Assembly: GCA_011389985.1 (NCBI GenBank)
Contig: JAABTH010000013.1
Coordinates: forward strand, 1-60,577
Length of the DNA: 60,577 nt
Source of the DNA: Bacillota bacterium
GTDB lineage: Bacteria > Bacillota > Dethiobacteria > DTU022
Direction: 5' to 3'
Both the position numbers and the translations under genes were made by a program. The notes beneath the pieces were generated by a model. It ran no database searches, was not told the origin of the DNA, and was given only the letters and a program-made list of their open reading frames with translations. This document shows, in pieces, positions 29,953-53,851 of the stretch (the stretch's first letter is position 1; each line of letters begins with the position of its first letter).

Positions 29953-30993
29953 ATGGAAATAGAGATTGAAGATGCCCTCATGCGTTCTGATCTGCTATTT
30001 ATAGACATTCGTTCACCGGGTGAATATAAAGAATCGTCTATACCGGGTTCTGTCAATATTCCTTTATTCAATGACCGGGAATACCGACGTTTAGGCATTT
30101 TATATCACAAACAGGGTGAGCATGATGCCAGAAAAGCTGCGCTCAATATTGTTGCGCCTAAACTTCCTCTGCTTGTTGATTCAATAACAGAAGTGTGCGG
30201 AGATAAAATACCAGTGCTCTACTGCAGCCGTGGTGGTATGCGCAGCCTTAGCCTTTACCAGGTTCTTTCCTTAACAGGTATCACTGTTCTGAGGCTTAAG
30301 CAGGGCTATAAAGCCTACCGCCGCTTTGTCAGGAAAAAACTGGCCGCCTATGAGCTGAAAAGCAAATTGATAGTACTCTATGGTCTGACCGGGGTAGGTA
30401 AAACAGCGCTTTTAAAAATGTTATTCACTTCGGAAATACCGGTAATTGACCTTGAAGGCCTGGCCAGACACCGCGGTTCTGTCTTTGGAGCAGTCGGCCC
30501 TGAAGCGCCCCGCTCACAAAAAGACTTTGACGCACTGCTGCTGCAGCAGCTTGACATTTTATCTGAAGAACCTTATCTAATAATAGAAGGTGAGGGGCGA
30601 AAAATAGGTAATGTCTACCTTCCGGTTTTTTTGGTCGAAGCGATGAAAATGGGTTACCAGGTTCTGTTAACTGCCCCGCTTGAAACCAGGGTAGAACGCA
30701 TTATCGGAGATTACAGCCCCGAACTGCTTTCAGATCGCAGTCTTGAAGAGCTGAAAAATGCTCTCGGGTTATTACGCCGTCGGCTAGGCCATAAAAAAGT
30801 TGATACACTGCTCAAATTAATTGATGAAGGTGAATACCGTTCTGTAACAGAAATACTCTGTACCGACTATTATGATCATTATTACAGTGATTCCCGGCCT
30901 GAATCGGCAGACTTTGATAAAAGGATCGACGCTACCGATCTAAACAAAGCTGCCAGAGAAATTGAAATACTAGTCAGTAACCTGACAAATTAA
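29953..30993 (+). CDS. mnmH: tRNA 2-selenouridine synthase
   Basis: 346 residues. An N-terminal rhodanese domain with DIRSPGEYKESSIPGSVNIPLF and the catalytic loop LYCSRGGMRS (Cys at about 92) is followed by a P-loop domain with Walker A LYGLTGVGKTALL. The arrangement is that of MnmH/SelU (YbbB), which replaces sulfur of 2-thiouridine at tRNA position 34 with selenium from selenophosphate. This implies SelD activity in the cell and supports the selenocysteine reading of the gene at 53.2 kb. It is the first gene of a plus-strand group with the YlbF-like and HAD genes. Confidence 0.93.
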   Translation: MEIEIEDALMRSDLLFIDIRSPGEYKESSIPGSVNIPLFNDREYRRLGILYHKQGEHDARKAALNIVAPKLPLLVDSITEVCGDKIPVLYCSRGGMRSLSLYQVLSLTGITVLRLKQGYKAYRRFVRKKLAAYELKSKLIVLYGLTGVGKTALLKMLFTSEIPVIDLEGLARHRGSVFGAVGPEAPRSQKDFDALLLQQLDILSEEPYLIIEGEGRKIGNVYLPVFLVEAMKMGYQVLLTAPLETRVERIIGDYSPELLSDRSLEELKNALGLLRRRLGHKKVDTLLKLIDEGEYRSVTEILCTDYYDHYYSDSRPESADFDKRIDATDLNKAAREIEILVSNLTN

Positions 30994-52224: not shown

Positions 52225-53166
52225 TCAAAATCTGGCTTCACCAACAGAAGTAATCTCAACCCGGCTGTGAGAAAAAACAGCAGACACGGCCTGATTATTT
52301 TCAATCTTCATCTCCAGGGTGGTCAGATCCGGACCGCCCAGTTCTATTCCGCCGCCTGATTCAATGTCAAGACTATGCCAGCCATTTTCACCAGCTGAAA
52401 TCTGTTCAAGTTCACCGGCAGCCAACACGGCAAGGCCAAGAGCAACCGAGCCAGTACCACAGGATGGCTCAAAAAACTCATCCTGCACGTAGTGAGGGAA
52501 AACTACCCTCATATTTCCTTTTCGCTCAGGATTCCAATCATAGACAGCAACATTGGGTTCTATCTCTCCTGTTTCACTCATAAACTGATGCTGTATGTTA
52601 AGTAACGCTTCACGTGTTTTCCCGTTCCAGCTGTTGAAATCAGCAAAGGGATAAACCTTTCTAAAAATATCGGCATTTATGACAAGAAATTTTCCGGCAC
52701 GCAGCACCTCGAGCTCATTGATAGTCATTTTACCGACACCATGTTCGTAGCACTCTGTCACAAAACACTCCATGTTGGTTCGAATTTTTTTAGCTTTACC
52801 ATTCTCGAAATTGATACTAAGTGAAGTGGGTCCACAATCGGTATGAAGGACAACATTTGCAGGTGAAGCTGCTTTGCTTAAACCAAAAAGATCTCCCAGA
52901 TCTGTTTCAACCAGGGCGGCGCCCAGAACCTGGGTAAAACCACCGCAGGCACTGATAAAACAGGGCACTGTCGGCTCAGCAATTTTTACTTCTATTTGTC
53001 CCGGTTTCCCAGTTGCATAAAGAATTCCTGCTTCATGAGCATATAGATAATTTGCGCCCATTAATTTAACCGCTGTTTCCAATTCACGGCCTACCGGAAC
53101 CTGGTCACCATGCAACAAAATGATCAGGTTGCCGCCCATATGACCGCGAACAAAATCAAGTTTCAT
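52225..53166 (-). CDS. DapF-like cofactor-independent epimerase
   Basis: 313 residues from ATG 53166 (ACGAGG upstream). The two-lobed diaminopimelate epimerase/proline racemase fold is visible by its paired cysteines: SACGGFTQVLGAAL in lobe 1 and FEPSCGTGSVALGLAV in lobe 2. The usual DapF signature N-x-x-G-N-x-x-R-C is not met, so it is not standard DapF. The substrate is unknown. It lies 49 bases after the redox gene pair and shares their terminator, but a functional link is only positional. Confidence 0.7.
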   Translation of the reverse strand: MKLDFVRGHMGGNLIILLHGDQVPVGRELETAVKLMGANYLYAHEAGILYATGKPGQIEVKIAEPTVPCFISACGGFTQVLGAALVETDLGDLFGLSKAASPANVVLHTDCGPTSLSINFENGKAKKIRTNMECFVTECYEHGVGKMTINELEVLRAGKFLVINADIFRKVYPFADFNSWNGKTREALLNIQHQFMSETGEIEPNVAVYDWNPERKGNMRVVFPHYVQDEFFEPSCGTGSVALGLAVLAAGELEQISAGENGWHSLDIESGGGIELGGPDLTTLEMKIENNQAVSAVFSHSRVEITSVGEARF

Positions 53167-53202
53167 TATCTGTATACCTCGTTTCACTAGTTTAAACTGT
53201 TG

Positions 53203-53241
53203 AAAGGGTGAAACTCACCCCTTAAGGTGAAATAGATTTCA
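53203..53241 (-). promoter_or_regulatory. Candidate bacterial SECIS element
   Basis: On the minus strand the TGA (53241-53239) is followed after 15 bases by a 9-bp stem: AAGGGGTGA (53223-53215), loop GTT (53214-53212), TCACCCTTT (53211-53203), one G-U pair. The apical loop starts 24 bases after the TGA and begins with G, which fits the distance and loop rule for bacterial SECIS hairpins. The terminator alternative is weak because CAACAG, not a T run, follows. Confidence 0.7.
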
Positions 53242-53613
53242 GTAACAATGTCCCATTTTTTTAACATCATTCATTCTGGTTGGAAGGCAGGGGCAGACAT
53301 TTTCAGGGATATTTTCAAAACGGCAGGGACAGTAAAAATCACCGTAAAGATTATTTTTCCCAATTAATCCTTCTATAACCAATTCTTTGTCTTCATTAAA
53401 GGTATAATTCCGCAGCCGGGCATAATTTTCCACCCTGTTTCGGACTTCGATTTCAGGATCCTGGGCAAACCGGGTAGCATTTACCTCTGGTTCAATAGAA
53501 GTAATTTCAAGCTCAGCTCCGCAAACAGTACAGATTACAACCTGGTTTTTTGCAACTTCACCCCGGTAAATAAAAGGAACCCGGCAAACTTCACAATATA
53601 TTTTATGCTTCAT
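53215..53613 (-). CDS. Ferredoxin:thioredoxin reductase catalytic subunit, probable selenoprotein (in-frame TGA)
   Basis: 132 residues if TGA at 53241-53239 is read as selenocysteine, 124 if it is a stop. An N-terminal zinc ribbon (C7-x2-C10, C28-x2-C31) is followed by an FTR beta domain with ELVIEGLIGKNN, then C95-P-C97, C107-P-C109 and C123-Y-TGA. FTR enzymes have CPC ... CPC ... CxC. Four Cys bind the 4Fe-4S cluster, and the second Cys of the first and last motifs form the active disulfide. The TGA falls exactly on that last Cys, and the next residues N-L-F match the family's x-L-F. Translation would end eight codons later at TGA 53217-53215. The start overlaps the glutaredoxin gene by 11 bases. 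It should pass ferredoxin electrons to a thioredoxin or glutaredoxin partner in the cytosol. Confidence 0.85.
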
Positions 53614-53851
53614 CCTTTAATGCCTCTTCAATTTCTTCCTGTTTGAAACCTCTGATAACTTTTTCACCTACCACAGTAACCGGAAAAGCCCTATGCCCAG
53701 TCAGTTTTTCCACTTCTGCAAGGGCTTGCTTCTGTTCTTCGCCCTGGGCGAGGTCAACTTCAATAACATCGAACTGCACATTTTTTTCATCTAAGAATTT
53801 TTTTACTTTTTTACACCACGGACATGTACTTAAGGAATAAACCTTTATCAT
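53603..53851 (-). CDS. Glutaredoxin-like protein (CPWC)
   Basis: 82 residues with active site STCPWCKKVKKFL (C10, C13) and the cis-Pro loop AFPVTVVGEKVIRGFKQEEI. Small NrdH/glutaredoxin-like redoxins of anaerobes take electrons from FTR or thioredoxin reductase. Coupling to the FTR gene (overlap) makes it the likely partner. AAGGAGAG precedes the ATG. Confidence 0.93.
   Translation of the reverse strand: MIKVYSLSTCPWCKKVKKFLDEKNVQFDVIEVDLAQGEEQKQALAEVEKLTGHRAFPVTVVGEKVIRGFKQEEIEEALKDEA

Follow-up and report, generated by a model that had tools for sequence, protein, structure and literature searches.

In 2008, two marine reads of the Global Ocean Sampling (GOS) led to the prediction of a form of the ferredoxin:thioredoxin reductase (FTR) catalytic subunit that contains selenocysteine (Sec), and one of these reads carried two Sec residues (Zhang & Gladyshev, PMC2398784); reviews of 2022 and 2026 list Sec-FTR with the motif C-x-U. 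An earlier note on the locus described here had guessed that a selenoprotein FTR would be new; this was too strong, as such a protein had been predicted in 2008 (PMC2398784) and modelled as NF041072 (FtrB_double_U, NCBIfam). The locus lies in a window of 60,577 nucleotides from a Bacillota bacterium, the window being the whole stretch of DNA that was analysed. The family to which it belongs resembles the GOS/NF041072 proteins in being an FTR catalytic subunit with a predicted Sec at a redox-active Cys, but the NF041072 form is marine and has two Sec, whereas the window family has a single Sec, a LysW-like Zn-ribbon and a glutaredoxin (Grx) gene upstream, and occurs in Bacillota. Four of its members scored 23-28 bits against NF041072 (23 for the window protein), compared to an equivalog cut-off of 160, and Sec at both redox-active positions, a trait of that model, was absent: position 97 is Cys in all 31 family genes that carry the UGA.

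Several Cys enzymes of known structure are also close. The best match in both sequence and fold is 7pwe from Desulfotalea psychrophila, in which Grx and FTR are joined in one chain; it differs in having Cys in place of Sec (aligned CYC) and in being fused, the window having two genes. The ferredoxin disulfide reductase of Methanosarcina acetivorans (4tpu) likewise has the three C-x-C motifs, together with an extra metal-binding domain rich in Cys, but it is a Cys enzyme whose rubredoxin-like part is C-terminal, whereas the LysW-like ribbon of the window protein is N-terminal. The FTR catalytic chain of chloroplasts and cyanobacteria (1dj7, 2pu9, 2puk) displays the same CPC / CPC / CxC motifs and the same fold, yet this Cys enzyme works with a separate variable subunit and reduces thioredoxins in photosynthesis. 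A search of the open literature, with subscription papers and supplementary tables outside its scope, found no single-Sec FTR with a Zn-ribbon from Bacillota. Judged by its sequences, the window family is a distinct version of the Sec-FTR already predicted; with it the selenoprotein FTR moves from a prediction on few marine sequences to a conserved family of wide occurrence, some relatives being found in named strains.

The FTR-like gene and its protein

The gene (53215-53613, minus strand) was assigned by its match to PF02943 (45.6 bits in a profile search, cut-off 22) and by alignment of its homologues, and is read as encoding a ferredoxin:disulfide reductase-like protein of 132 residues with one Sec at position 125. 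From the start at 53613, the minus-strand reading frame contains C95-P-C97, C107-P-C109 and C123-Y-TGA(53241-53239)-N-L-F-H-L-K-G-TGA(53217-53215). The motif layout described in the earlier note, with the TGA exactly at the last active-site Cys and N-L-F kept after it, was borne out by both the reading of the frame and the alignment. In the CPC/CPC/CxC pattern, the four cluster Cys and the two redox-active positions are invariant across the family, Sec replacing the last Cys. A family profile aligned the last C-x-C with that of the FTR structures 7pwe, 4tpu and 7bzk, and the TGA thus occupies the place of the last Cys of FTR. In FTR this Cys is the member of the redox-active pair that is turned towards the [4Fe-4S] cluster.

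Residues 7-42 (53488-53596, minus strand) form a putative N-terminal LysW-like Zn-ribbon with Cys 7, 10, 28 and 31; the match to PF21344, 24.5 bits, lies below the cut-off of 27. The cysteines of the ribbon are conserved among the homologues, and structural matches of the protein to LysW rank below those to FTR. An AlphaFold model, built with Cys for Sec and with the [4Fe-4S] cluster omitted, had a pLDDT of 95.4, and Foldseek gave it a probability of 1.00 to 7pwe, 7bzk, 2pu9 and 1dj7; the best of the PDB matches, 7pwe, is a natural glutaredoxin/ferredoxin disulfide reductase fusion.

Conservation of the in-frame TGA and the hairpin behind it

A scan of genome contigs yielded 41 FTR loci, most of them from metagenome-assembled genomes (MAGs), and addition of the window copy (L017) brought the set to 42 genes. 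The codon for residue 125, the cluster-proximal active-site position (53239-53241, minus strand), is TGA in 31 of these genes and TGC or TGT, encoding Cys, in 11 more distant ones; the 30 genomes other than the host that carry the UGA form are mostly Bacillota. A search of the phylum added two further TGA-type genes and several Cys-type genes. The codon of Cys97 is TGC or TGT in all 31 UGA-type genes.

Standard annotation would read the TGA as an ordinary stop, and under table 11 the frame does close there; the protein would then end at GHCY, its last active-site Cys lost. An ordinary stop would be expected to drift to TAA or TAG, but neither was found at this codon in any of the 31 UGA-bearing genes, while the true stop eight codons further on varies (TGA, TAG or TAA). 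In all 31, the frame continues past the UGA with N/G-L-F, and the downstream codons keep their amino acids and vary at third positions: in the six codons after the TGA there are 53 synonymous and 36 non-synonymous cells (sequences counted, not independent events), compared to a ratio of 9:45 predicted for single changes from the commonest codon. Close relatives ending naturally at GHCY had been named as a finding that would speak against Sec; instead, homology extends beyond the TGA. As the hairpin described below also covaries, and is missing from the Cys genes, we regard termination at this codon as very improbable. As far as comparison of sequences can tell, the UGA almost certainly directs the insertion of Sec at the reaction centre of a disulfide reductase driven by ferredoxin, and standard annotation would truncate such genes, hiding the active site.

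In a tree of 50 FTR proteins, which has many open forks and long branches, five changes between Sec and Cys were counted, at least two of them forced by supported branches. A Sec-FTR near that of Desulfotomaculum copahuensis was also seen in a MAG labelled Deltaproteobacteria (L044:3001-3390), through either transfer or a binning error.

The 9-bp hairpin with loop GTT that the earlier note had placed 15 bases after the TGA is present at 53203-53223 (minus strand), with the sequence AAGGGGUGA-GUU-UCACCCUUU; its stem starts exactly 15 nt past the first TGA, and the distance from UGA to loop is 24 nt. Published criteria for bacterial SECIS elements (PMC13188914) are a loop of 3-9 nt, a stem of 4-16 bp, a G in the first two loop positions, a distance of 16-37 nt from the UGA and an MFE of -7.5 kcal/mol or lower. 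When the hairpin was checked against them, every value fell within the limits: a loop of 3 nt (GUU), a stem of 9 bp, a distance of 24 nt and -11.8 kcal/mol for a 44-nt stretch. The fold of the single sequence was modestly better than that of shuffled versions (z -1.9), and a search of Rfam at the hairpin returned no family over threshold.

Each gene was scanned separately for a loop of 3-4 nt on a stem of 6 bp or more, with a G in the first two loop positions and a distance of 23-24 nt from the TGA. Such a hairpin was found in 31 of 31 UGA-type genes (stems of 6-10 bp), compared to none of the 11 Cys-type genes; by the same definition, it follows 10 of the 2427 TGA triplets in the window. Covariation was seen in seven of the eight stem pairs, in which both partners had changed; such double changes amounted to 26 cells, where shuffling gave 8.4 on average, and the register of the stem scored better than any slid version. 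These counts understate the pairing, because the gapless MAFFT alignment misregisters members with a 4-nt loop; the scan of single genes at fixed spacing took its place.

The hairpin might also be an intrinsic terminator or another 3' element, the UGA being passed by plain read-through or decoded as another amino acid. Some Cys homologues from Atribacteria (L051, L054 and L056) indeed have long hairpins just after FTR that are terminator-like and not SECIS-like. In the window, however, no T run follows the hairpin, and a conserved gene lies directly downstream of FTR in many loci. The 23-24 nt spacing from the UGA and the G within the first two loop positions are fixed in all 31 genes, although a terminator needs neither, and the Sec machinery tracks the UGA form (see below). 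It is highly unlikely that the hairpin serves such a function in place of that of a SECIS.

The 5' arm of the SECIS ends with the stop codon, and its loop and 3' arm lie past it. Since bacterial SECIS elements are placed within coding regions (PMC13188914), this is a small departure, expected because Sec sits so near the end of the gene. The stop itself, a second TGA eight codons after Sec and inside the 5' arm (53215-53217, minus strand) that the earlier note had passed over, is identified as genuine by the variation of the homologous codon, which among the 31 UGA-type genes is TGA in 21, TAA in five, TAG in three and CAG in two; the eight TAG/TAA members are distant, and the two with CAG end seven codons later. 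If both UGAs were read as Sec, a longer protein with two such residues would be made, and the presence of the second TGA in 21 of 31 loci, followed by codons (GTT TCA) that look partly conserved, could be taken to favour this. The chance of it is nevertheless very slim: distant members show TAA, TAG or CAG at the position, the apparent conservation after it is that of the SECIS 3' arm, the frames soon reach further stops, and in the window no nucleotide separates the second UGA from the loop, a spacing (0 nt) outside the 16-37 nt range. A UGA for Sec and a UGA for termination, paired on one SECIS, constitute a natural test of how the position of the SECIS sets the meaning of a UGA.

A sequencing or assembly error, by which TGA would stand for TGC or TGT, has a practically negligible probability, for although the window comes from a fragmented assembly of 45 contigs, 30 other genomes, obtained independently in many studies, carry the same TGA, among them the two named strains Desulfotomaculum copahuensis and Pelotomaculum propionicicum, and the alignment proposed as a check shows it conserved in 31 genes with Cys in 11 relatives.

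Selenium genes of the host and related genomes

Four genes, selA, selB, selC and selD, had been suggested as the machinery to look for in the host genome, and all of them were found over their cut-offs: selD (377 bits), selB (396 bits) and selA (598 bits) are clustered on one contig (C41:85207-89582), and selC (72.5 bits) lies on another. The host selD has an in-frame TGA of its own, TASAG-U-AAKIG (L061, minus strand, about 2402-2400), and SelD is itself predicted to be a selenoprotein; Sec decoding would thus be expected in this host in any case. A second selenium-using gene, the tRNA 2-selenouridine synthase (selU/ybbB) already recognized in the earlier note, lies within the window at 29995-30906 on the plus strand (TIGR03167, 305 bits, cut-off 219.75).

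In the phylum, selB is over its cut-off in 263 of 398 genomes, and its co-occurrence with FTR was for this reason uninformative as a test. Instead, the genomes that contain the 41 FTR loci were searched for selC, and for selA only where selC was missed. By this procedure, selC was detected in 26 of the 30 other UGA-type genomes and selA in the remaining four; two of the 11 Cys-type genomes have both selC and selA, and nine have neither. The presence of Sec machinery was thereby associated with the UGA form with a Fisher p of 1.6e-7, a value that ignores shared ancestry.

Glutaredoxin linkage and proposed mechanism

The gene upstream of FTR (53603-53851, minus strand) encodes a glutaredoxin-like protein with the motif CPWC (PF00462, 58.8 bits), and its stop overlaps the FTR start; a match to TIGR02196 (YruB-like) of 73.8 bits is below that cut-off. 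As determined by tblastn, 41 of the 42 main-set loci, Sec and Cys forms alike, and the five phylum loci tested have a Grx homologue immediately upstream of FTR. The exception is L048 of Pelotomaculum propionicicum (L048:1-760), in which other sequence, containing a short repeat, TAACTTAGGTACCCGGTACC, stands in place of the FTR start and the Grx neighbour, owing to rearrangement or misassembly. In L040 a frameshift, which is probably an error of assembly, interrupts the frame of the upstream Grx. When Sec was sought in the neighbouring Grx of ten loci, no UGA was found, and the motif was CPWC wherever the start was readable. The adjacency of the two genes, and the fusion of their counterparts in 7pwe, suggest that the CPWC Grx is likely the electron acceptor, or substrate, of the FTR; other disulfide proteins could also serve as substrates.

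We consider it very probable that the product of the gene is a ferredoxin-dependent disulfide reductase, composed of an FTR domain and an N-terminal Zn-ribbon, in which UGA 125 is translated as Sec by means of the SECIS, the second UGA is the stop, and Cys97 and Sec125 form a pair. Conservation of the Sec codon, covariation of the SECIS, the Sec machinery, homology to FTR and linkage to Grx were obtained by analysis; the chemistry, what each residue does and how electrons pass between Grx and FTR may be pictured as follows. Codon 125 would be decoded by SelB and tRNA-Sec, directed by the SECIS loop 24 nt downstream, and the ribosome would add seven residues after Sec before stopping at the second UGA, inside the stem of the SECIS. 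The [4Fe-4S] cluster of the protein would be held by Cys95, 107, 109 and 123, and through it ferredoxin electrons would be delivered singly. The redox-active pair would be Cys97 and Sec125, with a selenenyl-sulfide replacing the disulfide of FTR; Sec125, adjoining the cluster, would act as the resolving, cluster-facing partner, and Cys97 would attack the substrate disulfide, most likely that of the CPWC glutaredoxin encoded just upstream. As the earlier note proposed, Sec at this position might lower the redox potential of the pair and hasten reduction of the Grx.

The family probably represents a selenoprotein subfamily not catalogued before, a ferredoxin:glutaredoxin reductase of anaerobic Bacillota with one Sec and a fused Zn-ribbon. 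Its selenolate could ligate the cluster during catalysis, and its SECIS is split by the stop codon, in most members a second UGA, which would leave two UGAs, eight codons apart, to be read differently. Selenium would then be placed next to the iron-sulfur cluster of an enzyme with well-studied one-electron intermediates, and the Sec and Cys forms are for this reason directly comparable.

Just after FTR in the window, on the same strand, lies an open reading frame of 320 residues (52228-53187, minus strand), which had no Pfam or NCBIfam match and whose CGTGS-type motifs recall DapF or proline racemase; its counterpart adjoins the Sec-FTR gene in many relatives.
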